A stretch of DNA of 52,088 bases, taken from IMG/VR virus record IMGVR_UViG_3300017788_000034, positions 1-52,088 of that record; one strand, 5' to 3'. Positions within the stretch are counted from its first letter, which is position 1. Every line of letters starts with the position of its first letter. This DNA is from a virus. The position numbers were made by a program, and so were the translations under genes. Under the pieces are notes generated by a model. That model worked only from the letters and a program-made list of their open reading frames with translations, searched no databases and was not told the origin of the DNA. Shown one piece after another: positions 12,307 through 39,100 of the stretch.

Positions 12307-13023
12307 ATGTCATTACCAAAACCTCCTGTGCCAACATATGAATTGACCATTCCTTCTAATGGGAAAACAATTAAATACAGACCTTTCTTGGTAAAAGAAG
12401 AAAAGGTTTTGCTTATTGCGATGGAATCTCAAGATGAGAAAATGATTAAAGAATCAGTAATTGATATCTTGAAGAATTGTATTCTTACTAGAGGAATTAA
12501 AATCCAAGATCTTTCTATTTTTGATATCGAATATATTTTTCTACGCATTCGTTCGAAAGCAGTAGGAGAAAGAGTCGAAATGAATTTGATTTGTAAGGAT
12601 GATCAAGAAACTAAAGTTAGATATGAGATAGATTTAGAATCAATTGAAGTACAGTATCCAGAAGGACATGATAAAAAAATTATGTTGAGTGATACCAGCG
12701 GTATTATAATGAAGTATCCTGGGTTTGATCAATTTTTGAATACACAAATCCTTCAAAAAAATCCAACTACATCTGAGGTGTTTGATATTGTTATTGATTC
12801 CGTTCATCAAATTTTTGATGGCGAAGAGGTTTGGGAGCAAAGTACAACACCACGCAAAGAAATTGCCGAGTATGTTGAGGGATTGACTACTAAACAGTTT
12901 GAAAAAATACAACAATTTTTTCTTACGATGCCTAAACTTTCTCACACATTCTCTATTACCAATCCAAATACAGGTGTAGATTCAGAGTACGAAATTGAGG
13001 GCTTGGTAAATTTTTTCGGATAA
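12307..13023 (+). CDS. gp26: Baseplate hub subunit gp26 (T4 baseplate family)
   Basis: 238 residues. It fits the T4 gp26 family: N-terminal PTYELTIPSNGKTIKYRPFLVKEEKVLLIAM, then LKNCILTRGIKIQDLSIFDIEYIFLRIR and the C-terminal LTTKQFEKIQQFFLTMPKLSHTF. gp26 takes part in building the baseplate hub together with gp51. GGAG precedes the start (12297-12300). The last codons (AAT TTT TTC GGA TAA) contain a classical -1 slippery heptamer, so a fraction of ribosomes probably continues into the gp51-like frame; see the next entry. Confidence 0.88.
   Translation: MSLPKPPVPTYELTIPSNGKTIKYRPFLVKEEKVLLIAMESQDEKMIKESVIDILKNCILTRGIKIQDLSIFDIEYIFLRIRSKAVGERVEMNLICKDDQETKVRYEIDLESIEVQYPEGHDKKIMLSDTSGIIMKYPGFDQFLNTQILQKNPTTSEVFDIVIDSVHQIFDGEEVWEQSTTPRKEIAEYVEGLTTKQFEKIQQFFLTMPKLSHTFSITNPNTGVDSEYEIEGLVNFFG
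13011..13017 (+). promoter_or_regulatory. -1 ribosomal frameshift site T TTT TTC at the end of gp26
   Basis: The gp26 frame reads AAT TTT TTC GGA TAA; the heptamer T TTT TTC (13011-13017) is a standard X XXY YYZ site. A Shine-Dalgarno-like GAGGG (12997-13001) lies nine bases upstream, as in the dnaX arrangement. A weak 6-bp stem, AAGTTT (13022-13027) with AAACTT (13036-13041), lies four bases downstream. The -1 frame then stays open for 56 codons. Confidence 0.75.
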
Positions 13024-13187
13024 GTTTATTCCATGAAACTTTAGAAAATCATTACAAATCTAATTTTAATTTGATGTATCATCATAAATTTTCTTTATCT
13101 GAATTGGAAAATATGATGCCATGGGAAAGACAAGTATATATTATTATGCTTAATCAATACATTGAAGAACAGAAGAAGAATCAGTAA
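13011..13187 (+). CDS. gp51: gp51-like extension, probably made as a gp26-gp51 frameshift fusion
   Basis: In the -1 frame after the slippery site, 56 residues follow: RISLFHETLENHYKSNFNLM, then YHHKFSLSELENMMPWERQV and YIIMLNQYIEEQKKNQ. The HETLENHY and ELENMMPWER parts are what I associate with the gp51-type baseplate hub assembly family in T4-like cyanophages. The frame has a stop at 12996-12998 and then no ATG, GTG or TTG until 13071/13074, which would cut off the conserved first half. Translation by frameshift from gp26 is therefore the simplest reading. Its stop shares one base with the next ATG (TAATG). T4 encodes 26 and 51 as adjacent separate genes. Confidence 0.72.
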   Translation, partial: FFRISLFHETLENHYKSNFNLMYHHKFSLSELENMMPWERQVYIIMLNQYIEEQKKNQ

Positions 13188-16174
13188 TGAACCCAGCACC
13201 AGCACCAGAAGGAATACTAGACCCGCAACAACCTTATTGGCCTGCTGATAGAGTTGGTGAGGCAACTTGGTTGCGTCTGAAAGGAAAACTAACTGGTAGA
13301 AAAATTCCAGAGTTGAGTGGTGAGCAACACACATCCTATGTAAAGCTTAGTGATGCTGATGCTGATAGGTTAATTGAAAACCTTAAAAAATGGGGTAAGT
13401 ATCCTCAAGTAAATCAGAATGATAAGTATGGTGGTGCATATAATAATGAAGCATATCAAAAGTGGTTGGTAGAAGAGTTCCTTGAGAAACCTTTCCGCGA
13501 AGAAGTAGATAAGAAAATTGAAGAAGCACAGCAAGAATCAAGAATAAAAGAAATACGTGATAAGGCAAAAAAAGATAAAGAATCTGTTCCTTTGCCACCA
13601 ATTCAGGAAGAAAAAAAAGAACAAGATATTTTAGATAGTGATCAAGAAGCTATCGAAGAACAAGTAGAAAAAATTACAACAGAATTAGATTCTGTTGAGG
13701 AAGAAGAAAAGAAAGCAGAGACTCCAGAAACTCCAGAAACTCCAGAGACAACGGAAGAGAAGGAGGATTCTAATAAACTAGATTCAGATATACAAGCAAT
13801 TAGTGATTCTCTTGTCACTATTAAAGAATCATTAACAAATCAGATTTCTGATTTAGGTTCTATTGAAAGAGATAGTGTCAAATCTCTATCTGTTCTTGAA
13901 GAACTCAAACAATTATTTCAAGCACAAACAGATATTGTTAAGCGTGAGTTAGATAAATCAGAATCTAAGGAAAGAGAATCTTCGCTGGAAAAAAGTGAGG
14001 TAGTTTCTGGCAACGATCAAGCTACAAGCACCACTGGTGATAACAAAGCCGAAGGAATTATTCAAGGAGTAGATGGTCCTACCATTACAGTTAAAACTAC
14101 TGAGGGAGAATTTAAACAGGGACAAAAAATTTCTCAAGGTGGTGGTGGCGGTGGTTTATTTGATATGCTTAAGGGCATCGCTGGAAAATTTATGGGTCGT
14201 GGAAAGGGCGCTGGCGGCGGTGGTGCCCCTCTTAAAATGTCACGAGGTGGTATTGCTGTCGGTCCTACAAAATTAGCAGGCGGAGCACTTTCTCCTGGTG
14301 TATACGACAAACCAACGAGAGGAAATCTAGCACCAGGGCAAGCGGTTGTGCCATTGAATAGAAACATCGGAAAGAAAATGTTTCCAGACCATCTTAACCA
14401 AACCACAAAGTTACAACAACCACTTGCTGATGTAATGGCACAACCATTGAAAGCAATCGGATTATCTATTCTTACTGTTGCTGGCAATTTCTTAAGATTA
14501 CTTGGACCTCTTGCTGGATTTTTTACTCCGTATGTAAGTGGATTGGTGAAAGGATTTGCTGCTGTCTTAGGTGTGCCCGTTGCTATTATAAGTGCCTTAC
14601 TTGGCGGTCCTGCTTATGCTGCCATGGAAGACCAAGAAAAACAGCAGAATGTATTTTCTGGTGTGTGGGGTTCTTTAATGGAGAAATTTGGATTTGATTT
14701 TGGTGGAGAAGACGATCAAGATAAAAAGAAAAGGAAGAAAAAAGGAGATACACCGTCAACAACTCCTGGTGAATGGGGTCCACTTCTTGATTTAATTAAA
14801 AGCGTTGAAGCAAAAGCCCACAAATACGAAGCGGTAAATTATGGAAAGGGGTCAGGAGTTATTAAAGGAATAACTGACATGACCATAACAGAAGCATATA
14901 AAGCTTCTGAAAAATATAGAGCACAACACGGAGGTTCTGGTGCTGTTGGACAGTATCAATTTATGACCCCAACGAAACAGGCAAAAGATGCAGGATTAAA
15001 TCCAGACACTGATAAATTTAGTCCTGAAAATCAAGACAAAATGGCCGTAGATCTTATTGAAAATAAGAGAGGAGGAAAAGACTGGAAAGCAGGAAAACTA
15101 GATGACAATACTTTCATGAAAAATGTTGCTGCTGAGTGGAGAGGATTGCCAGCAGGTCCAGACGGCAAAACATATCAAGATCAATATGCATCTAGAAATG
15201 CTGCACATGCGACGTGGGACAAATACAAAGAAGCGATACAAAAAATTAAAGCAGAAGAGGGTGTTAAAATAATAACCAACGATACTTCATCAATGGGCAA
15301 GATGCTTGGATGGTCTGTTGTAAGTGGACCAAATTCTGGTTACGATGTTGGTTCTAATTTAGAAATGCACGGTGAAGAAGCATATTTACAATATGAAAAA
15401 GGATTTTCAATTCTTCCAATAGAAAATAATCAATTTAGTTTGAGTAAGAAACCAAAAGAAACTCTAACTAGATGGCAAGAACTATTGGGACCACCAGCTA
15501 TTACAACAGGACCTGGCCCTGGCGAAAAAAACCAATACAAAGCTGAAAGGGGAATTACTGCTGGGCAAAACAACAATGTATCTGGATTTTTAGGATTTTT
15601 GCAAAAAAAATTATTTGGACCTCGAAGTATTGATAGAAAACGACAAGGACGCGAACTAAGGAGTTTTAGAAATAGTAAAAGAAACTTTGGCAAAGACTAC
15701 AAACGACAAGAGTTAATGCTTTCTGCACGAGCAAAAGGAGGTAGTGGATTAGCAGACATTAGAGGCGCTCAAAGGGAAAAACCAGCACCACGCAATCCAG
15801 TTGCTAGAACTGGCGGAAGCTCAAAACCAGCTCCAGCAGAAAAGAAAGCACCATCTGAAACTGATTTAATGATGGAACAATATGAAGCACTTGTTGCTGC
15901 GGGCAAACACGGTGAAGCAAAAGAATTAGGTATGAAGATATGGAATAAAACTTGGAGAAAAACAGAAAAAGGAATAGAAAGAATCCCAACTACTCCTCTC
16001 ACTGCTACAGACGCACCAGCATCTAAACCACCACCACCCGCCACAGCGCCAGGAGGAGAGGCGCAAGAAATTATTGTTCCTATTCCTCAAGGTGGTGGAG
16101 TTCCTCCCGCACCCCAACCACAGCGCACTATGAAAGAAGAAATGGAATACCTTATGTTGAAAAATCTTTGTTGA
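13187..16174 (+). CDS. Tape-measure-like tail protein with an internal lysozyme-like domain
   Basis: 995 residues. Residues 1-80 are compact. About 95-265 form a long charged coiled-coil/low-complexity stretch with ETPETPETPETTE. A Gly-rich part follows, with SRGGIAVGPTKLAGG and APGQAVVPL (about 353-392), a signature common in phage tape-measure proteins. A hydrophobic region (about 430-485) could insert in a membrane. Residues about 530-690 look like a lysozyme/muramidase domain: LLDLIKSVEA with a candidate catalytic Glu, then GGSGAVGQYQFMTPTKQAKD. A basic, Pro-rich tail ends the protein. Position after gp26/gp51 fits the T4 gp29 slot. Likely functions are tail length control and local cell-wall opening. 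Confidence 0.7.
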   Translation: MNPAPAPEGILDPQQPYWPADRVGEATWLRLKGKLTGRKIPELSGEQHTSYVKLSDADADRLIENLKKWGKYPQVNQNDKYGGAYNNEAYQKWLVEEFLEKPFREEVDKKIEEAQQESRIKEIRDKAKKDKESVPLPPIQEEKKEQDILDSDQEAIEEQVEKITTELDSVEEEEKKAETPETPETPETTEEKEDSNKLDSDIQAISDSLVTIKESLTNQISDLGSIERDSVKSLSVLEELKQLFQAQTDIVKRELDKSESKERESSLEKSEVVSGNDQATSTTGDNKAEGIIQGVDGPTITVKTTEGEFKQGQKISQGGGGGGLFDMLKGIAGKFMGRGKGAGGGGAPLKMSRGGIAVGPTKLAGGALSPGVYDKPTRGNLAPGQAVVPLNRNIGKKMFPDHLNQTTKLQQPLADVMAQPLKAIGLSILTVAGNFLRLLGPLAGFFTPYVSGLVKGFAAVLGVPVAIISALLGGPAYAAMEDQEKQQNVFSGVWGSLMEKFGFDFGGEDDQDKKKRKKKGDTPSTTPGEWGPLLDLIKSVEAKAHKYEAVNYGKGSGVIKGITDMTITEAYKASEKYRAQHGGSGAVGQYQFMTPTKQAKDAGLNPDTDKFSPENQDKMAVDLIENKRGGKDWKAGKLDDNTFMKNVAAEWRGLPAGPDGKTYQDQYASRNAAHATWDKYKEAIQKIKAEEGVKIITNDTSSMGKMLGWSVVSGPNSGYDVGSNLEMHGEEAYLQYEKGFSILPIENNQFSLSKKPKETLTRWQELLGPPAITTGPGPGEKNQYKAERGITAGQNNNVSGFLGFLQKKLFGPRSIDRKRQGRELRSFRNSKRNFGKDYKRQELMLSARAKGGSGLADIRGAQREKPAPRNPVARTGGSSKPAPAEKKAPSETDLMMEQYEALVAAGKHGEAKELGMKIWNKTWRKTEKGIERIPTTPLTATDAPASKPPPPATAPGGEAQEIIVPIPQGGGVPPAPQPQRTMKEEMEYLMLKNLC

Positions 16175-16204: not shown

Positions 16205-19200
16205 ATGTCATCGGGAACAGTTAACGCGACATCCACATACTCACCAGGAAAGGGAATGTCTTTTGCTAAAGACATTGGATCTCGTGTGCTTGCCGCAGCT
16301 CAATCCGCAAAAAACGAGAAAAAATTACAAGAAAAGATTGAAGCAGAAGGCGGTGAGGTTCCAGAGAGTGCTAAAAAAGGATTGTTTGGTAGGGCACTTA
16401 AGCAGGAATTTGTTACAAATCCTATTAATGATTTAAAGAAAAGTTTTAATAAGAAATTATCTGGCGCTGCTAATGCAGTAGGGTTTTTTGGTAGCAAAGG
16501 TAGAGCACTAGAAGATAAGATGTTGGGGAAAAAAATCTCTATCAAGAAAGGAGGATTTGACAGGTCTGGATATAAAAGAGCTCAAGGTGATGACGATGAT
16601 AGTGGAGGAGTCGGCGGCGGTGGTGGTGCTGGCGGCGGTGGAGTTGCCACATTAGGTGCTCTAGTTTTAGATGTCCAAGCAATCGCCTCTGCTGTTTCAT
16701 CAATGCAGGGACTGATTAATACTCAAATGATTATCTCCTCTAAGATGTCAGATTCTTTGGGAGAAATTAAAACCATTTTAGGAGAACAAGTATCAATTCA
16801 ACAACAAAGAATTGAAAATGAAGAGAGAGCAGCGATGGAAGCATCGTTAGAAGCATCTCAGCAAGTATCTGGAACTAGTAAAGCAACATCAACACTTACT
16901 GAAGGTGGTGGATTACTTGGTATGCTTGGTGATTTACAATCTTTATTTGGCATACTCAAATCATTGCCAGCAATGTTCATGGGATTATTAAAAGGTATTT
17001 TGTCTAAGATTCCTGGTGGTAAATTTTTACTTGATAAATTTGGTGGTAATGCTGCTAAAAAAGCAGCGGGAGAAGTAGCAGAAACAGGAGCAAAAGGATT
17101 ACTAGGAAAAATTTTGAGACCCATTTTTAAACGCATACCTGTTATTGGTGGTTTGATAGATTTCGCTGTCAGTTTAGCACTAGGAGAACCAGTTGGTAGG
17201 GCGGCAGCAAAAGCAGCTGGTGCTATGCTTGGTGGCGCTCTAGGCGGTATTATCGGATCGGTTGTGCCAGGACCAGGAACTTTTGTTGGAGGTCTCCTAG
17301 GTGGCATAGCTGGCGACTGGGTAGGTAGTAGTTTATATGATGCTATTACTGGTGCTTTTGGCGCAAAATCAGAAGAGAAAATGGCATCAGGCGGAGTGAT
17401 GATCGGTGAGGCAGGTAAAGAAGCTGTTGTTGATTTAAATTCTGCCGAAGGTAAATCACAACTGGGTGGCGGCAGTTCTGCTGTGGATTCGGCTGGGCAA
17501 TCTTATTACGGTGCTATTGCTGGTAGCACTCTTGCTGTCACTAAAGAATTTATTGAGGGTATGGGTCCGATTGGTGCTGCTGTTGCCCCAGTTATACAGG
17601 ATGATATTGCTAAGTTGGGGCAAACATTTGAATTACCTGCTACAGCTATTAAGATGTCTGTGGGTGGAGCAGGATTACAACCAGTAGCAGGAGCAGAAAA
17701 GAAAGGTGAAAAATTCTTAGAAAAATTGGTGACAGGATCACTAGAAAAAATTGGCAAAAAGAAAGAAAAAGGTAAAACATCTGGCGGAGGTGGCGGCGGC
17801 GGCGATGGCACACCCCCTGGTACTGATCCACCTCCAGCGCCGCCAGCGCCGCCAGGTAATGTCAATCAACCAACTGGAGGTGGCAAATCTAACTTTACTT
17901 TTGGTGATAGTATCGCATCTGGGTTAGTTGGGAGGCAAGGCGCTAATGGACAGACAGTAATGGATGCATCTGGAATAAGTAAAGTTGGAGCAAGTCCAGC
18001 AGATGTGTTAGGTCAATTACAAGCTTTTGATCAGAGTAAACTTAAGGGGAAGACAGTTAGATTATCTTCTGGTATTACAAACAATCCATCTGACTTGAAG
18101 AGTGTAGAAGATCAAATAAAATATCTTGTTAGTGTGGGTGCTAAGGTTCAACTAGTTGGAGTTACTAATACACCGCCACAAAAAGGAACAACATACGGTC
18201 ATTTAGAAAAGTCTTTAGCTGGAATGAATGATAAATTATCAGCTCTAGCAGCTAAGTATGCCGATAAAGGAGTAATGTTCTTGGGTGGATTCAAACCAGG
18301 ATCCGATGGTATTCATCCAGCAAATGCATCTGAGTTAAATTCATCTTACAATGTTGATGTGCAGCCAGGCGGAAAAGTTGGCGCTGCTTCTGGTATTACT
18401 GTTACTTCCAATGGCAATGGTGGAAACAAAAGAATGGAACCAGGACAAACTTATGGTTTTGATAGTTTACATGCACATCATAGTGATGAAGGTAGAATGA
18501 GAGTTTATAAGGGGGTCGAAACTGGGGTGCCGAAAGATTATGGGATGGGAGTAGCACCACACTACATGCCATCTGGTCCAAATGGACAAATACCACTTCC
18601 TGTTGCTGGAAAAGTTTTAACTAGAGAGTGGGATAAACAAACTGGATATGGCAGAACTGTTATTGTTGAAACTAATTTAGGTAAAATGCAGTTTTCTCAT
18701 TTGAGTAAGTTTGGGAAGTTTGAAGTTGGCGATCAACTATCAGCTGGAACAATAATCGGTGTTCAAGGTGGGTCAGGTAGTACTGAAACTACTTACGCTG
18801 AGCATCTTCATTTAAATGCATCCAAGAAAGGTCATGAAGCATTCGTAAACTTTATTACATCTGGCAAACCAACAACAGGTGTTACTTCGGATGATACTGA
18901 TTCACCTGGAAATGAAGACGAAGGGAACAATCAATCCGAACCAGAAGATCCATTCACTGCGATGGAATCTGGATTGAAAGAAATGTTAGCGGGTGCCATG
19001 GTGATGGGAGGAAATCCCAAAGACAAAGCAGAATTTGACAAACTTCTAAAAGAAGCAAATGAATCAACTGCCGTTACTAACATGTTTAGTACAGGTAATG
19101 TAACCACTCCAACTACTGCACCTCCTTCACAAAATCAGCGAGGGCGCATAGCGACTGGTGCGTCCGCAACCCCAACCCCATCAGTTGTTCATGTTCCTGT

Positions 19201-19288
19201 TGGGTCCAGCTCTCCATCATCTTTAAGTGGAACAGCAAATCCAGGGGCAGGAACGCCTCACGCTTTAGTTCCATTGAGACCAGCATAA
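16205..19288 (+). CDS. Second tape-measure-like tail protein with SGNH-hydrolase-like and M23-like domains
   Basis: 1027 residues. It has a basic N-terminus, a Gly-rich linker (about 135-150), a helical coil (about 160-220), and hydrophobic Gly-rich segments at 240-275 and 320-385 (LGGIIGSVVPGPGTFVGGLL). The tape-measure signature GGVMIGEAGKEAVVDL lies at about 396-411. A Pro/Gly hinge follows, then an SGNH-like domain with GDSI (from 567) and the closing DGIHP (701-705; Asp701, His704). An M23 endopeptidase-like domain has HLSKFGKFEVGDQLSAGTII and the zinc motif HLHL (His867, His869). The first zinc motif (around HAHHSD, 756-761) is not the usual HxxxD. It probably digests cell wall or envelope polymers during infection. 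Confidence 0.7.
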   Translation: MSSGTVNATSTYSPGKGMSFAKDIGSRVLAAAQSAKNEKKLQEKIEAEGGEVPESAKKGLFGRALKQEFVTNPINDLKKSFNKKLSGAANAVGFFGSKGRALEDKMLGKKISIKKGGFDRSGYKRAQGDDDDSGGVGGGGGAGGGGVATLGALVLDVQAIASAVSSMQGLINTQMIISSKMSDSLGEIKTILGEQVSIQQQRIENEERAAMEASLEASQQVSGTSKATSTLTEGGGLLGMLGDLQSLFGILKSLPAMFMGLLKGILSKIPGGKFLLDKFGGNAAKKAAGEVAETGAKGLLGKILRPIFKRIPVIGGLIDFAVSLALGEPVGRAAAKAAGAMLGGALGGIIGSVVPGPGTFVGGLLGGIAGDWVGSSLYDAITGAFGAKSEEKMASGGVMIGEAGKEAVVDLNSAEGKSQLGGGSSAVDSAGQSYYGAIAGSTLAVTKEFIEGMGPIGAAVAPVIQDDIAKLGQTFELPATAIKMSVGGAGLQPVAGAEKKGEKFLEKLVTGSLEKIGKKKEKGKTSGGGGGGGDGTPPGTDPPPAPPAPPGNVNQPTGGGKSNFTFGDSIASGLVGRQGANGQTVMDASGISKVGASPADVLGQLQAFDQSKLKGKTVRLSSGITNNPSDLKSVEDQIKYLVSVGAKVQLVGVTNTPPQKGTTYGHLEKSLAGMNDKLSALAAKYADKGVMFLGGFKPGSDGIHPANASELNSSYNVDVQPGGKVGAASGITVTSNGNGGNKRMEPGQTYGFDSLHAHHSDEGRMRVYKGVETGVPKDYGMGVAPHYMPSGPNGQIPLPVAGKVLTREWDKQTGYGRTVIVETNLGKMQFSHLSKFGKFEVGDQLSAGTIIGVQGGSGSTETTYAEHLHLNASKKGHEAFVNFITSGKPTTGVTSDDTDSPGNEDEGNNQSEPEDPFTAMESGLKEMLAGAMVMGGNPKDKAEFDKLLKEANESTAVTNMFSTGNVTTPTTAPPSQNQRGRIATGASATPTPSVVHVPVGSSSPSSLSGTANPGAGTPHALVPLRPA

Positions 19289-27151: not shown

Positions 27152-30100
27152 ATGCCATTAACAAGGTTAGATAATCTATTATCAAGTAAGACTGGTAAGT
27201 ACATTTATGTTTCTCCTGATGACTTTAACGCAAGTGACGCATTAGATAACAGAGGTAATAGTCAATTACGTCCTTTTGTCTCTATTCAACGTGCTTTCTT
27301 AGAAGTAGCACGTTTTTCGTATGTTCCTGGAGTTAATAATGACAGGTTTGACCAGTTTACGATTATGCTGGCGCCTGGTACTCACTATATTGATAATCGT
27401 CCTGGTGACACGGATACATCAAATGTTCCCATATTCAATTATGATGCGGTAACAGATACTTGGAATGACCCCGCTATTTTTGACTTAGGAAATCCTAATA
27501 ATATTCTGTATCGTTTTAACGGGCGTGATGGTGGTTGCACCATTCCTAGAGGTACATCTCTTGTAGGTACAGACCTTCGTAGAACACAACTTCGTGCTCT
27601 TTATGTACCAGATCCAGCTGATGTTGATGTTCCTCGTACATCACTATTCAATGTAACTGGTGGTTGTTATTTTTGGCAGTTTACTATTCTTGATGCTAAT
27701 CCAGAAAATGGACCACTGAACGGACTAGCATATAGTCAACCTGGGTCTACACAAAAGTCAATACCACTGTATTCCCACCACAAGATGACAAACTTTGTCT
27801 ATGCGGACAAAGAAGATTTGAGTTTACTTTATAGAAAAATTTCAAAATGCTTCAGTAAGTATCAAGAAGCTATTGATGATGTTTACACTGATGAAGTTGG
27901 TAGAATTCAGGATACTTGGTCTTCTACACAATCATATATCGTAAATAATAATGTAGTCTTTGGCGGTGAAGCATATAAGGCACTCGCTAACTCTACAAAC
28001 AAAAGACCAGACTTAGAAGATACATTTTGGGAACGTCTGAACACAATTTCGCGTGAATTTGACTTCAGAATTCAAGAAAACCGAATTGTCGGACCTCTTG
28101 CTGATACCGTTCAATTAGATGAATTTATTGTATCAGAACCTTCAGCTGGATTGCTGGATGTTACAGTAAGAACAAAAATTAATCATGGATTTTTTCCAGG
28201 TCAATATGTTGCTATTGACAACACTGGATTAAATCGTAATTTGGAGGGTGTATTCCAAGTTTACAGTATTAGCACTACAAATCCTAAGGAATTTAAGTAT
28301 CGTATTGTAACTACTGCGAGTGCTGTTGGGCTAGTTCCTGGAGCATCTATTACTCCTAATTCTGCCGCTACTGTATTGGCAGAGATAGACAGCGTTGAAT
28401 CAGCATCACCTTACGTTTTCAACGTTTCTATTCGTTCTGTGTGGGGTATTTGTGGTATTTGGGCGGATGGAAGAAAAGCCACTGGTTTCAAATCAATGGT
28501 TATCGCTCAGTATACGGGTGTTTCGCTACAAAAAGATGACCGTGCGTTCATTCGCTACGATGAATTTAGTAACACTTGGAATCAAGCACCACTAACTGAT
28601 GCGTTTGCTACAACTCCTTATCACATTAAGGGTGACGCATATTGGAAAGATGATTGGAGAAACTTCCACGTTCGTGCTTCGGATGACTCCTTCATTCAAA
28701 ACGTTTCGATCTTTGCTGTAGGTTTTGCCGATCACTTCCTGCTTGAGTCTGGTGGTGACATGTCCATCACCAACTCCAACTCGAACTTTGGTAATACTTC
28801 GATGCATTCGAAGGGATTCAAAGGATTTGCGTTTAACCAAGATAAAGGTGGATATATTACTGATATTATTCCACCAAAAATTCTTGATGAAAGTGTCCAA
28901 CCAATTAAAACAAGTTATTATCCAATTGATGTTCAGTTATCCAAACCATCAACGAATAATAACAGACTTTATATAACTGGAGATAAGGCAAATAATTTCC
29001 TATCTCGTCCCGCCGCAAGTATCAATGGATATAGATTAGGTGCTAGAACATATATTAATGATGATAAGAGTGAAAAGATTTATGTTAATACTACCGCTGA
29101 TCAAACATCTGGCGAAACTGGTTCTACTACAAAATCTGCTGTAGTTTATCCACAAGGATTTAAAATTTGGTCAGCAGCACTTGATACATTAAGTCCTGCT
29201 AATTTAGGTATTGGTGATTTTAACCAAGATGGTACGCCAAATACTGCTGCTGATACTCTCTTATTCAATCTTCGTCAAGATGCTGCTAATTTAATTGATG
29301 CTAATAAAGTCTTTATTCAAGCAGAAGCATTTGGATACATTCTTGAAAAATATCCATACCTTCAAACTATTCCATACGTTAATCCTAACATCACGTTTGA
29401 AACTGGTCGTTTTAGAGATGCTCGCAACTTAATTTTAGCTAATCGTCAAGAAATTATTGACTTTTCTTACAATCAAATGTTGACTGCTTTCCCAACATTT
29501 GTTCCACCTAGCGTAGATAAGTGTAAGAGAGATATTGGAATTATTGTTGATGCTGTTGCCGCTGACTTATATGATGGCGGTAACGCTCATGTGGTTGAAG
29601 CAACCGAATCATATTTTGATGCAAATGGAAATCCAATTGTTGATGGAGTTGTTGGTGAAGTAACTCAGACCATATATGCTTTTAATCGTGCCAGAGACTT
29701 GGCTAAAAAAGCAATTTCCAATTTACTTGGAAATACTTCTCTTGTTCCAGTGGTTTCTTTGACATCTAGTGGAACCACTATTACGGTTACAACATCTTCT
29801 GCACATAATCTAAAAATTGGTCAGGAAATTAATATTGGTGGCGCCACCCAAAGTGAGTACAACGTATATAAAACTGTAGTTTTGTCGTCTGGTCTTACTC
29901 CAACACAATTCCAATATAAGGTATCTGTTGCCCCATCTGTAACTGTCGCAACTGGTGCTTTCTACGTTTCTAAAATTACTATTGACCCAGAAAACACCAT
30001 TAATCCAGCTGGTAGATATAAAGATGCTGCTAGACTTGTTACTGCCAATAGAAGGGAAATCGTTGATCGTGCAGCAGCTGAAATTGCTATTCAGCATCCA

Positions 30101-33100
30101 GATTTCTTCTATCCTGGCGATCCACAAACAACCGCAACATCACGTTTTAAAGATGGTTATAGATTAATTCAACAGAATCGCCGTCAAATTGTTGATCGTG
30201 CCGCTGCCGAAATCGCCATTCAGTTCCCTGATTTCTCCTATCCTGGTGATCCAATAACAACTGCTGTATCTAGATATAAAGATTCCTTTAGACTCATTCA
30301 ACAAAATAGACAAGAAATTGTTGATCGTGCTGCTGCTCAAATTGCAGTCGAACATCCAGATTTCTCCTATCCTGGCGATCCAGTAACAACTGCTGTATCT
30401 AGATTTAAAGATGCTTATCGTCTAATCCAACTAAACAGAACAGCAATTATTGATACTGCGTATGCTGCTATTGCTACGGCATTTCCAACTTTCGTCATCA
30501 ACGCAACAAATACAGATAAGTGTAAGAGAGATATTGGTATCTTCGTCGATTCTATATCTCTAGACATCGCTCAAGCTGGAGGAAATGTATATACTCGTAA
30601 ATTTGTTCTTTCATATTTTAATAACAACACTCCTATTACTAATGGTCTTGTAGGTGAAGAGGCACAATCAAATGCTGCCTTTAATGCGGCTTGTGAAGAA
30701 ATGAAAAAAGCAGTCACAAACCAATTAGCAATTAAAGATCTAACTATCACTTCTGGTGCTGCTACCTTTGGTGGCAGTGGTGGCACTATCGCCAATAACA
30801 GCCCAAATGCTTGTGATGATGTTCGTTCTGCACTTGATAGTTTAACACTTATCGTAACGACTCGCATTGCTGCTGGTAATATAACTGGTCTTCCTGCTGA
30901 ATCAATATCAACTACTGTTCCTGCTGGAGAAGCTAAGTGTAAAAGAGATGTTGGTATCTTCGTTGATGCTTTATCTTTGGATATTTCTAATGGTGGTGGT
31001 AATGTATACAGTCGTCAATTTGTTCTTCAATATTTCAATAACGGTACTCCTATCAGTAATGGATTAGTAAATGAAGAAGCACAATCTGTAACTGCTTTCA
31101 ACAAAGCAAGAGATGAGATGAACAGAGCGATTACTAACCAGTTGTTCGCTAAAGATCTTTCAATTACTGCAGACCCAACACCTGGATCTGGATCTGTATC
31201 GAATACAAATTCCACCTCCTGTGCTAACGTTCAAGCAGCTATCACTAGCCTGGCATTACTTGTTACTGCTCGTGTTACCGCTGGTAACATAACTGGTCTT
31301 CCTGCTGAAACAGTATCAACTACTATTCCTGATGGAGAGGCAAAATGTAAGAGAGATATTGGTATCTTTGTTGATGCGGTTTCACTTGATATCGCACAGG
31401 GCGGTGGCAATGTATACAGTCGTCAATTTGTTCTTCAGTATTTCAATAACGGTACTCCTATTAGTAATGGATTAGTAAATGAAGAAGCACAATCTGTAGC
31501 TGCTTTTGACATGGCTCGTGACATGATGAAGTTAGCAATTACTAATCAGTTGTTTGCTAAAGATCTCACTGTCACTTCTGGTCCTACTAGTGCTGGTGGA
31601 ACTGGCGGCAATGTGAGCAATAATAGTCTTACTGCTTGTTCAGATGTTCAAACTGCCATTACAAACCTAACAGCAATTATTACCGCAAGAGTTACTGCTG
31701 GTAACATAACTGGTCTTCCCGCCGAGACAGTATCGACTACTGTTCCTGCTGGAGAAGTTAAGTGTAAGAGAGATATTGGAATCATTGTGGATGCTGTACA
31801 GCAAGATCTTTTCTGGGCTGGAAATGAATTCACCATTGCCGCAATTCGTGAATACTTTACCAGTAATAATGTTTTATTAACAAATGGTCTTGTTGATGAA
31901 ATTAATCAATCTATAACTGCTTTCAACGCTGCTGGAAACATGGTTAAGAAAGCAATCAATAATCAGTTGTTTACTAAGAATTTAGCACTATCTTCTGGTC
32001 CTGCTATCTTTGGGAGCGGCGGCGCTGTTGTTCCTAATAACAGCCCAACTGCTTGTGCTGACGTACAAGCGACAGTTGATACTCTATTTGGACTTGTGAG
32101 CACAACTCTTACTGCAGGTACGCTCTCATCTCTACCCGCAATCAATAATGGAAAATGGGATTGTGCTAACGTAAGAACCGCAATCGACACACTATTCTTA
32201 ATTCTCACAACTGCTTTAAATACTAATAGTATTGCTGCTCTTCCACCCTCTAATCCTGGTCCTTGGAGTACTGTTAGTGAATCAAGCAAGTGCCGTAGAG
32301 ATATTGGATATATTGTTGAGTCTATTACCGCTGACCTTCGTTTGGGTGGTAATGAAAATACAATTAATGCTGCTGAAGCATATTTCACTGGAACTGGTCA
32401 ACAAACTTTATCTGGTACACTTGCTTCAACTGGTGTTATCACTGGATTAACTAGCACTGCTAATTTACTAGTTGGTATGGCAGTATCTAAAACTTCTGGT
32501 GCTGGTTCATTTGGTGTTAACCCAACAATTGTTTCGATTGATGGAGTAACACAAATTACCGTCACTCAAACTTCAGGAACAGTAACTCCTGGTGCTATTT
32601 CTTTCATTGCTAACCAACTTGATTACATTGAAAAAGAAAGAGTTGAAACTCTTGAATCTTACGATTATGTAAGAAACTTAGCAATTTCTGCTATGAGAAA
32701 TCATAATACCTATGTAAGTGGTAATGCTACTGGTAACTCAGCAATTATTACTGTACCTAGTACTAATGGTCTTATTATTGGAATGTCAGTTCGCAGTGTA
32801 ACTACTATTCCAACTAATACTGGTTCTCTCAACACATTAACAACAAATTACAATGATGAATTAGAAGAAATTAAAAATGGTCGTGTAGTTCCTAAAGCGA
32901 CAAATTATACTACTGCCATTCCTTCAAATGCTTACATCATGAAAATTGGTGATGGAAATAACGGGTTGAACGCAAATCAAATTCAACTTGGAACAAAAGG
33001 TTCTAAATTTGATTCTGGTGTACTTGTAACTGCTAGTTCTTCTTTGGGAACAAATACGCCTACTAAGTTCTTCTTCCAATTAGAAACTGGTATTTGGGCT

Positions 33101-36100
33101 AATGCTATCAAACCATCAGTCGATCTTCAAGTACTTCAAGATTATGATTATGCCGCAACATATGGAGAATGCTCTTCAGTAGTTGAAAATATTAATACAT
33201 TCTTTACTACTTTTAGTACCGTTATTAATAATGGTATTGGTAGCATTGCCAGGAAAACTTCTGAACTTAGCACAGGAACATTTGCCCAGAGAGCAACAAT
33301 CTTTACTTTAACTGATACTTCTTCTGGTGCTTCTCCTACAAACCCTCACCACCTAGAGACGGGAACGCCTGTAAGACTTGTTCCTCGTGCTAAGGACGGT
33401 GTTACGGTAGATAAGCGTTTTATCAGACTTCCTAGAGGATTTGACACAAATACTGTGTATTATATTATTGCTCCTGGTAGAAAGACAGATCCATACGATT
33501 ATTCTAATACTACTAGATTTGATGGAACTACTGTTGGTTCTTACCAAAGTGTTATGCTTGCTAGTAGCGCAGAAAACGCTGCTACTGGTATATACATCTA
33601 TTCCTCAGAAACAGAAAGTATTGATGAAAATGTAACAATTGATGTTTATCAATATGTTCTTGATGTTAAGTATGACCTTAACCAATACACCACTTCAAGA
33701 GGTGATGGAACTACATTGGTAACAGAAGAACCACATGTTTTTGACCTTCCAAACTCTTCTTGGAATATAAATGATAATCAAAAATATCAAGCAATCTTCT
33801 TCAAACCAATTGGAAATGGTACTTTGCCAACTGGTATTTCCTCCGCTAGAGAATACTATGCTCGTTATGTAAATAAACCAAATTTACCTGTTAACCGTCA
33901 GTTTGAAGTTTATGATACTCTAACTCAGGCTGTCCAAGGTGCTACTCCACTTACCTTCCCTGTTTTCACTGGTTCTTTCTATACTTTCTCAAACAAAAAG
34001 AGGTCTCCTCTTAGATTTGCTCCAGAAGCAGGTGCCTCTCTTTCTTTTGATGAAACAAAGCTTTATGTAAATAATAAATCAATATTTGCGGTTAATGACT
34101 ATGTTAGGGTAGCAGATGAATTTTTCTTTGTTACTGGTATTTCGACTACAGGTTCAGACCATCTTATTGTAACAAGATCAGTACTTGGATCATTCCCAGT
34201 TAGTCATTCGGTAGGAGCGGTTGTAAATAAGTGGAATTATAATAATACTTCAACTACTACTACTCTTGCTGAGACAGTAGATTTAGTAGAAACTATTTTT
34301 GACTTTACTTCTGTTTCAGGATTTGCGATTGGCGATTTTGTAAGATTAACTAATAATGTAACTACGTTGAATGAAGTAATTAAAATTACTAAGATTGAAG
34401 GTACTCAAGTTATAGCAGCTAGAGCACAATTAGGAACTGTAGTACAAGCACAATCAGGAACAATAACTGCTACTCGTCTATCTCTTACTGCTGCTTCTCC
34501 TGCTGTTACTACAACTCTTTCTGAAGGATATCCAAGACTTTTATCAGCAGCAGAAAGTGGTAATTATGCTGGTGGTACTTGGTATATCGGTACTGACTCT
34601 ACCAGACCTAACACCATTCTTGAAAGAATGCGTAAAGAAGACTTTTCTACTAAAGATAAAACTCCAGACACTTGGTTTGAAAGAATTGAAGACAGCAGAA
34701 CAAAAGAAGATCGTGTTTATAGATTACGTTATGTTATTCCTAATTATCTTAAGTCAGTTCGAGATCCTTTAAATGGATTTATTATTAAAGCTAGAAATGA
34801 CCAAACCAGAAGACTGTTACCACAAAAAATTCTAGTAAAACCAACTGCTAGTGGGTCAGATATTGCTGAACTTAGTATTCCCAACCAAGGAGCTGCGGTT
34901 ACAGGAAAATCTCCAAATAGAGAATATTTAGGATATACCACAGCAGAACACGGACCAAACTTTATAAGCCTTTATGATCCATATAATCCAGAGACTCTAT
35001 CTCAAATTGATGAGACACCTAAGTATAGAAAAAAGGTTACCACTGATTCTAAAGTAACTTTTTATGTTGAATCTGCCAGAAGAGTTTTATCAAAGGGTAG
35101 AGAATACTTACAATTAACGGTATTCAATATCGGTATTGAAGAGCAAGGATATAAAGAAAAACTGTTCACTACTGTCAGAATTGACGCACCACAAGGAGGA
35201 ACAGGACAATTTGTTTCTAATATCGCCAACCTAGCAAATACAGATACATCTAATATTATTACCTGGGATGGCGCATGTAAAGGTAAAGCACGAGTTCACG
35301 CTTACTTTGATTACGAGAATCAACATTATCTAATTCTTAAAGATATTACTGGAGTATCAAAATTAGAATTTGATTATAATGGAGCTTCAACAGTATTCAC
35401 ACAAGGTACTGTTTCTGCTACTCTACTTTCTCCACCAAATGAAGGACGTTCTGATATTAAGAATTACCTCTACGCAGTAGAAGGGTCAAATGCCTATACT
35501 ATGACTCCTGGAGATACTTTCCAAGCAGAAAATGGTAACTATACAATTGCTAGTGTAGAAGATACGGAAGATTTTGAAGATACTTTCTATATTTTTGATA
35601 TCAATGAAGTTCGCAGAAGAATTCCTGGTCAGCAAGACGGAGTTTATTATCTAACTTGTCTACGTGGCGATATTAGACCATTCCCAACTGGTGCTGGTGT
35701 TGGTTTAAACTTTAGAGATATGAAATTCTCTCAACCAGTATCAAAACTTTATCCTGAATTCTATAAGAATGACCCAGAATGGTATAAGCAACTTGATTCT
35801 GCTGCTGTAGACTCACCAGAAACTATATCTGCTGCGGATAACTACGTCCACGGATTAGTTACTGTTAACGATTCTAAAGCTAGTGTAACTAGAGAAGGTA
35901 TACTAGACCTTGTTAAAGATAAAGGTTCTAAGAGATATAACTTCACGGGAACAACTGAAATTAAAGCTTTACCTGGCGGTGCCTCTGCTGGTTCTGAAGC
36001 AAGAAGAATTCCTATTTGTGGTAATTCACCATATCCAACTGAAAAACGAATATACGTAGAACTTCGTAGACCATCTATTGCTCGTTCAGGTAACCACACG

Positions 36101-39100
36101 TTTGAATATCTTGGATTCGGTCCTGGTAACTACTCAACTGGTTTCCCATCCAGACAGGAAGTTGTTCTTTCTGATATTCAAGATTTCTATGCTCAGGCTA
36201 AGAGACAGAATGGTGGTATCGTATTCTATACTGGTCTAAACTCCAATGGTGACTTGTATATTGGTAACCGCAAGATTAATGCTATCACTGGCGAAGAAAC
36301 ATTCCTAGAATCAGCATTACTTGTTGAGTCTTCTGATCAAGGAGATTCGATTGGAAACTTTGTAACTACTTTCGATGGTCCAGTTACATTCAATGATGTT
36401 GTTTCTTTCCTTGCTCCTCTTCAAAAAGGACCACTTCAATTTACAGCTCCAATTTTTATGGATGTAGGCACAATTGTTCCTACAACTGGATTTAATGCTC
36501 CCCCCGCTATTCAAATCAAATCTAATATTGCTACCGAGGATGATTCTACTCTTAGAATCAATCCATCGACTACCAGACCAACTGGTGATATTATCATTAC
36601 TGATAATAGATTACAGGTTGCGGTTATTGATTTTAATACTAGAGGATTACAAGATTACTCAATTCGTACCGCTCTTAATCAAATAACACCAGACCAACTC
36701 AATATATTTGGACAACTTAGCGGAGGAATAAGTTCACAAGTTATCAACTTTGGTAGTAAGTATCCATTGAAAACTGGTGATATTCTTCTAAGAGGAGAAC
36801 AAGTTGGACTTAGTGGTTCTATTGCTTGGGTTTATGGTAATAATTTTGAAACCGTAGCAAATGCCTACAAGTATAAACTACAAGGTTTTGGTGCTGGTAA
36901 TCCCAAAATAAGGGTTCTATGGGCAGCGGTTTCTGGCACAAGTACCAATTATACAAACACCCAAGTAGGAATTAAATCTGCAAACTATCAAGTTAAGATT
37001 ACTGGCACGATTCAAAATTCTGCTAATTCTGGATTAACTTCTAGAATTTTAGGTGCTTGGAGTATTATACCGTCTACTTTCAGTGAAAACAATGATTTTG
37101 TAGATCTTCAGCTGAATGATTATGTAGATGTAGGTCAGTATGATTTTTCTGCTGCTACCGAACCATCTGTAGTTATTTCTATATCTAACGTTGCTTGGAA
37201 GGAAGTTGGTGTAATTGGTGCAGAGTCTATTAGAACTAAGACTGATGACATTGGTGATTATCGAGTAGGTATTAACACTGTTGCTCGTACCGCTCACACA
37301 GCATTTAAAAATGGATTTATTGAGAGTGGTGCTACTGACCCAAGAGCTAATTTTGATGTTGTTGGAACAGCATTCATTAGTGGCAAAACATTAGCAACTT
37401 CACCAAATAATTATATTGCTAATTCAACTCTTGCTGCTAGAACATTCATCAATCAAGACAACGCTTTGTTGGTTGGTGGAGACAGTGCTACTCCAAATAA
37501 TGCTGCTGTATTCAGACTATCTACTACCAATAGTGGTAGAGTAGGTATTAATACAACTAACGATCAACTAAATGGCACTGCCAATAATGGTTGGTATGCC
37601 GTTGCGTTTGCTGTAATTGGCAATGTGGCATTTAGTGGAAACCTAAGAGTTCAAACTGACCTTGCTGTAAATGGTGGGGACATCACAACCAGTGTTACTA
37701 CTACTGATTTTAACTTCTTAAATCAAAGCACATTTGCTGGTAGTATCACTGACAATGCTGGTGTTATTACAACCACTGGATTAAATATTGCTAATTATGC
37801 CGCTTCTATTAATATTGGTACTAATAGAACATCTGGTCAATATATTAATATTGCTAATGTTTCTGACAATGTTAATGTAAGAATTGCGAATAATCCTAGT
37901 ACTACTATTAGCAATGTTTCTAAAGTTAATATTGGTGGTGCTTTTAGTAATAACGAATCTCAGAGTTATGTTTCGTTTGATTCTAAATTAACTAGAGTTG
38001 GTGGTGACTTAGCTCTTAGTTATTTGAGAGGTCCTGGGTCACTTGTAAGAATTACCGTTCCTTCTGGAGCGATTCTGGAGGCATTTAATGATGCAACTAC
38101 GTTAACTCTTGCTGGTAATGCTTCCACGATTGCTTTTGGTGGTCAGGGTGGAACTACAAAGATTAGAAACTCTCTTATTGTAGATGCATCACTTGTATCA
38201 AATGGCAACTTCACTATGAATGGTGGATTGTCTTCGTTTGATTTTAATGGTGTTCGTGGGCAAATGGGAACTACTCCACTTGCGGTAACTGGCACAAGTA
38301 CTCCACCTTTAGATAAAACAATTGATCTTGTTACAATTATCAATAGTATTCCTGGAATTACGGATTATTATGTTAATCAAATTGATACTGCTGGTAGTGG
38401 TGATTGGGGTGGCATTTCCTATCAGGTGGCAATTACTAATATTCTTGGAGCACCTCCTAATAATTTACCAGCATTAACTGGAAATCAGTTCTATTTACCA
38501 CTACAAACTGCTCCAACATATAATGAAGGTGATTATCTATTAATTGATACCCCTGTTATTACAGGACTTGCTCAACATCCAGAAATTGTTAGAATCCCTA
38601 CGGGAGGATTGGTTAGAACGGGTACTTATCCATACTATATTATTGTAGAAAGACAACCATTAGGAACGTTTGCTCCAATAAGATCAGATCATCCAGATAA
38701 TCCAACATATCAAACAAAAGTTAGAAAGATAAATGTTGCCTTTGATGCTACTTGGACAACAAATAATTTAACTGCTAGCACTGGAACTTCTCTTATTCAG
38801 TTAGCTGAATTTGGTGGAAGTTTGGGAATTGGTGATTACGTTATTCAACAAAGAAGACCACCATTTAATGCTGTTGCTGTTAATGGTAGTAATCAATTAC
38901 AGTCGGTAGTATCTAACTCTTATACATTAGCAGTTGGACAGAAAGTTTCTTCTCAAACTGGTGGAATTACAATTCCAGATGGAACTACAATTACTGCGAT
39001 TAGTGGTTCAACAATTACTTTATCAAATACAGTTACTGGAAATGGTTCTGCTGTATTTAATATTGATATTGGAGAAATCATTAAAATTGCTACATCAGTA

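Follow-up and report, generated by a model that had tools for sequence, protein, structure and literature searches.

A putative programmed -1 frameshift joining gp26 to a gp51-like extension in a T4-like phage and its relatives

A programmed -1 frameshift near the end of the gp26-like gene very probably provides a T4-like phage with a short and a long tail assembly chaperone (TAC-N and TAC-NC). The gene was analysed in a viral DNA of 52,088 nucleotides (IMG/VR record IMGVR_UViG_3300017788_000034), which is referred to in its full length as the window. The shift is strongly supported by the comparison of sequences, since the slippery site is invariant, the spacing to a Shine-Dalgarno-like motif is fixed, the extension encoded in the -1 frame is conserved and many relatives lack a start codon for it. 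The site, its register, the selection acting on the extension and the homology to gp26 and gp51 of phage T4 were all borne out by this comparison.

The proposed shift site and its genetic neighbourhood

The gp26-like gene (TAC-N) extends on the plus strand from position 12307 to 13023 as an open reading frame encoding 238 amino acids. The deduced protein matched the Pfam family T4_baseplate (PF12322) with an E-value of 1.7e-66 and phrog_150, annotated as 'baseplate hub', with an E-value of 5.3e-72, and its C-terminus reads GLVNFFG-stop. The slippery heptamer T TTT TTC (13011..13017, plus strand) is located in the zero-frame phase within the last codons of the gene. It is preceded at a distance of nine nucleotides by the Shine-Dalgarno-like putative stimulator GAGGG (12997..13001, plus strand), which overlaps with the TGA codon that shuts the -1 frame ahead of the shift site (12996..12998, plus strand). 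The extension in the -1 frame (TAC-C; 13017..13187, plus strand) consists of 56 open codons (13017-13184) and a TAA stop codon at 13185-13187, and the predicted fusion of gp26 with the extension comprises 293 residues. The earliest ATG, GTG or TTG within the extension is a TTG at codon 19 (13071).

The first-pass annotation, which was made from the sequence alone, had described the heptamer in the last codons of gp26, the GAGGG nine bases upstream, a -1 frame that is shut at 12996 and then open for 56 codons past the slip, and the lack of a usable start codon before 13071; all of these elements were found again at the same positions, the heptamer being in the correct phase. The weak 6-bp stem that it had proposed downstream of the heptamer had to be abandoned, as the respective region of the window folds worse than shuffled sequences (z +1.45) and no consensus base pair was detected among 27 aligned relatives. 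The bare heptamer is common in the AT-rich window, where 43 copies were observed on both strands versus 28 expected, and the evidence for the site therefore consists in its conservation and not in the motif alone.

The window is the contig of a T4-like phage; homologues of gp32, PhoH, gp53, gp48 and gp2 adjoin gp26, and the gene order around gp26 is that of S-PM2 and P-SSM2. The extension is followed by a large gene (13187..16174, plus strand), the ATG of which overlaps with the stop codon of the extension (TAATG). This gene probably encodes the tape measure protein according to its position, size and composition rather than a direct family match; family matches in the relatives back this identity, and those in the window do so weakly. 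Two large tape-measure-like genes are present in succession in the window, the first (13187-16174) with a transglycosylase- or endolysin-like region and the second (16205-19288) with an M23-like peptidase region. Further downstream, a single open reading frame of 4632 amino acids (27152-41050) matches short tail fibre and tail fibre families. In most loci the stop codon of the extension overlaps or almost touches the start codon of the large gene that comes after it. Since only frameshifted ribosomes would arrive at this stop/start overlap (13185-13189 in the window, and likewise in most relatives), synthesis of the tape-measure-like protein may be coupled to the shift.

Constraint on the site and alternative explanations

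The conservation of the junction was determined in a close set of 81 loci, consisting of the window and 80 contigs with 46-74% identity that were collected by a gp26 protein search with peptides internal to gp26 and clear of the junction. The sequence TTTTTTC was present in the same phase at the gp26 junction of all 81 loci, which is the result of the comparison across T4-like cyanophages that the first-pass annotation had suggested as a check. In a tree comprising 79 distinct sequences, not a single third-base change was counted within the three codons of the heptamer, whereas the mean elsewhere in gp26 was 21.7 per codon and the lowest value of any other three-codon window was 21. The codon preceding the heptamer varies between AGT, TCT, AAT, GCT and GAT, with the final T always being kept, and the heptamer does not occur in phase at any other of the 18,905 codon positions within the 81 genes. 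Additionally, GAGGG, AGGGG, AAGGG or GAAGG was found 8-9 nucleotides upstream of the heptamer in 76 of the 81 loci. Within the extension, 367, 172 and 820 changes were counted at the first, second and third codon positions, respectively, and this distribution indicates that the extension is under purifying selection as a protein in the -1 frame.

These counts bear directly on two explanations that dispense with a ribosomal shift. Preservation of the heptamer merely through a pair of phenylalanines and codon bias is hardly credible: the pair is invariant among the 79 distinct sequences and TTT is the favoured phenylalanine codon, but the second codon is TTC in 79 of 79 cases and thus runs against the bias (25% TTC and 75% TTT elsewhere), and the other conserved phenylalanine columns display 2-20 third-base changes compared with none at the heptamer. 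Under this explanation the extension of the window would moreover go untranslated, yet protein-level selection acts on it. Transcriptional slippage on the T6 run, by which mRNAs encoding the fusion would be produced without a ribosomal shift, is likewise highly improbable, even though a run of six or seven T residues is found in nearly all loci. Runs of six bases are short for slippage by a bacterial polymerase, and both the fixed codon phase T TTT TTN and the spacing of the Shine-Dalgarno-like motif are needed by ribosomes only.

More credible than these two, but still very unlikely, is the assumption that the extension represents a separate small gene (gp51) that is started by translational coupling at the gp26 stop codon or immediately behind it, as is annotated in P-SSM2 and S-PM2 with starts 3 nucleotides past this stop codon. 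The extension contains an ATG among its first eight codons in 54 of the 81 loci (and a GTG or TTG in one more), and TGATG or TAATG occurs at the stop codon in Cr30, YB07, phi-Grn1 and PhiW-14. On the other hand, ATG, GTG and TTG are absent from the first eight codons in 26 of the 81 loci, namely the window and 25 relatives, and in all 81 loci they are also lacking from the part of the -1 frame that precedes the site. In 11 loci none of these codons appears before codon 17, and initiation from there on would lose residues that are conserved in 75-78 of 78 sequences, whereas in the window a separate gp51 would either forfeit the first residues of the extension or need the non-standard start codon ATA at codon 2. 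The Shine-Dalgarno-like motif, furthermore, is located about 24 nucleotides ahead of the ATG of the P-SSM2 type, which is too distant for initiation, and coupling leaves the frozen heptamer unexplained.

The extension in T4 and in distantly related phages

The extension of the window matched phrog_634, annotated as 'baseplate hub assembly catalyst' (gp51), with an E-value of 1.6e-22; a weaker match was obtained to the C-terminal end of phrog_150, the profile of which covers both gp26 and the extension. The window accordingly combines the two parts that characterise the T4 gp26/gp51 family, a PF12322 N-terminal part and the C-terminal extension of gp51. In T4 itself the gp26 and gp51 genes are separate and divergent. 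Residues 1-201 of T4 gp51 matched PF12322 with an E-value of 3.9e-52, a blastp comparison of T4 gp26 with T4 gp51 gave an E-value of 3e-6, and the cyanophage extension, used as a profile, matched residues 208-244 of T4 gp51 and had no match to T4 gp26. Judged from these three lines of similarity, T4 gp51 is a paralogue of gp26 with the extension fused in frame, and T4 does without a shift. The designation of the extension as gp51-like in the first-pass annotation thus holds for the C-terminal part of about 50 residues in T4 gp51, whereas the N-terminal 200 residues of that protein belong to the gp26 paralogue.

In a phage collection, 697 records were related to gp26 and 565 to the extension, and cyanophages displayed the same -1 register for gp26 and the extension among the matches listed. 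The -1 register together with a heptamer T TTT TTC, T TTT TTT or T TTT TTG was also present in Caulobacter phage Cr30, Stenotrophomonas phage YB07, Cronobacter phage S13, Vibrio phage phi-Grn1, Delftia phage PhiW-14, Aeromonas phage P19, Acinetobacter phage SH-Ab 15599, Sinorhizobium phage phiM12, Rhizobium phages RHph_N34 and P10VF, Pseudomonas phages pf16 and Astolliot, Methylophilales phage Melnitz-3, Synechococcus phages S-CREM2, B23, ACG-2014d and S-PRM1, Desulfovibrio phage 7757 and several further viral contigs; one record (L114) yielded no useful junction, the match ending early. The gp26 stop codon is located 0 to 3 codons past the heptamer while the register and the extension persist (L108 and L110, S-CREM2, Astolliot), and in L108 and L110, where the stop codon is shifted further downstream, the -1 frame remains open. 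In one record (L145:2501-3246) a T4-type gp51 gene changes frame halfway along its length; this case was set aside, as the change is located away from the shift site and probably reflects a sequencing error.

In the Ackermannviridae (L115-L132, Menlow) and in Vibrio phage K362 the -1 extension is conserved as well, but ATT TTC or CTT TTC takes the place of the heptamer, which was counted against the shift. The sequence following gp26 in these phages (L115-L132; L088; L090:3130-3350) corresponds to phrog_9633, annotated as 'unknown function'. The first-pass annotation had stated that relatives carrying gp51 in this position without a slippery site, or with a separate start codon, would speak against its proposal; the heptamer is present in 81 of the 81 close loci, the site is absent from the Ackermannviridae and K362, and an early ATG occurs in 54 of the 81. 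In Campylobacter phage CC_R7 and Vibrio phage Va1 the extension is joined in frame to the upstream part. It is possible, though tentative, that the shift is ancestral for the T4 superfamily in its entirety, comprising the Kyanoviridae, the KVP40-like and Emmerichvirinae members of the Straboviridae, and the rhizobial, Caulobacter and Desulfovibrio phages. In that case T4, some Campylobacter phages and Vibrio phage Va1 would have changed to in-frame genes, and the Ackermannviridae would have lost the heptamer while retaining the -1 extension, which they would have to reach by another route.

Proposed mechanism, chaperone role and annotation

For the phage of the window we infer that the shift takes place in cells, that it involves a minor part of the ribosomes, that the Shine-Dalgarno-like motif acts on it and that the products function as chaperones. 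Ribosomes translating gp26 would meet U UUU UUC two codons ahead of the gp26 stop codon, and most of them would continue and terminate, releasing the short chaperone of 238 amino acids. Pairing of GAGGG with the 16S rRNA tail would hold up a fraction of the ribosomes, which would then slip one base back with both Phe-tRNAs re-pairing (UUU to UUU and UUC to UUU) and read CGG, yielding the fusion of 293 amino acids. The short form would represent the TAC-N and the long form the TAC-NC of the T4-like phage; by analogy with gpG and gpGT of phage lambda, the N part may coat the tape measure protein and the C part may recruit tube subunits during tail assembly.

The suggestion of the first-pass annotation that gp26 and gp51 form the chaperone pair of the T4 group agrees with T4 genetics, with the position ahead of the tape-measure-like gene and with the paralogy of T4 gp26 and gp51. 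Both T4 proteins are classed as chaperones of hub assembly; the gp51 protein is required yet missing from the particle, and older work disagrees on the presence of gp26 in the T4 virion (PMC3004832). A sequence search of the PDB gave no real match for gp26 or gp51, whereas solved structures exist for the T4 tape measure protein gp29. When the AlphaFold model of gp26 (pLDDT 87) was compared with the folds in the PDB, the HK97 tail assembly chaperone gp13 (2ob9) ranked first, as a weak match (probability 0.72) with an E-value of 1.2 that is not significant and that covers 61 columns, about a quarter of gp26, with a TM-score of 0.43 on the target. A fold search of the PDB with a T4-type gp51 model (pLDDT 89) returned no match, tail assembly chaperones included, and a search of NCBIfam likewise gave no match. 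The fold comparison is only suggestive of a tail assembly chaperone.

Frameshifting is the means by which many long-tailed phages produce their two tail chaperones. The arrangement resembles gpE/gpE+E' of phage P2 and gpG/gpGT of phage lambda, in which the -1 shift occurs shortly before the short gene ends and leads into an extension ahead of the tape measure gene. The slippery heptamer of P2 is T TTT TTG, the same heptamer that was detected in Rhizobium phages RHph_N34 and P10VF. The likeness is one of arrangement; gp26 is larger (238 amino acids) and a member of PF12322. A similar arrangement is present in the locus of Pseudomonas phage Adele and the Vandenendeviridae, a phage group other than that of the window, where TAC-N ends in an invariant poly-T motif (GTTTTT) and the tape measure gene is preceded by a -1 extension that is likewise conserved (PMC12846349).

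In the PRFect paper (PMC10885494), T4-like phages that possess a short TAC gene together with a longer, fused one are credited to Vladimirov et al. 2022, and PMC12846349 cites the same work for poly-T slippery sites in T4-like TAC-N genes. To judge from these citations, the system of Vladimirov, Gautam and Davidson 2022 most likely concerns the same gp26/gp51 family genes; its title stresses the non-frameshift route, as in T4, whereas the window locus would use the shift. Chaperone frameshifting in the T4 group appears, from what is cited of that work, to be already in the literature, and the window adds a further, well-supported case. Our literature search found no description of a cyanophage gp26/gp51 shift, and the quantified constraint across cyanophages, the spread over distant groups and the exception of the Ackermannviridae were not found in the literature examined.

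With respect to genome annotations, the record of S-RSM4 (L094:3558-3692) places the start of gp51 at an internal methionine, by which conserved residues are cut off, and the record of ACG-2014d (L157) omits gp51. None of the inspected records with a frameshift-type junction joins the extension to gp26. That gp51 is missing or truncated in cyanophage annotations would be due to the fact that it is not a stand-alone gene.

With the proposed shift, the T4-like cyanophages would gain the two-chaperone logic of lambda, P2 and HK97. The long-puzzling gp26 and gp51 proteins of T4, hub assembly factors of which one is not in the virion, would become testable as a tail assembly chaperone pair, and a clean natural comparison of frameshifting and gene duplication as routes to such a pair would become available.
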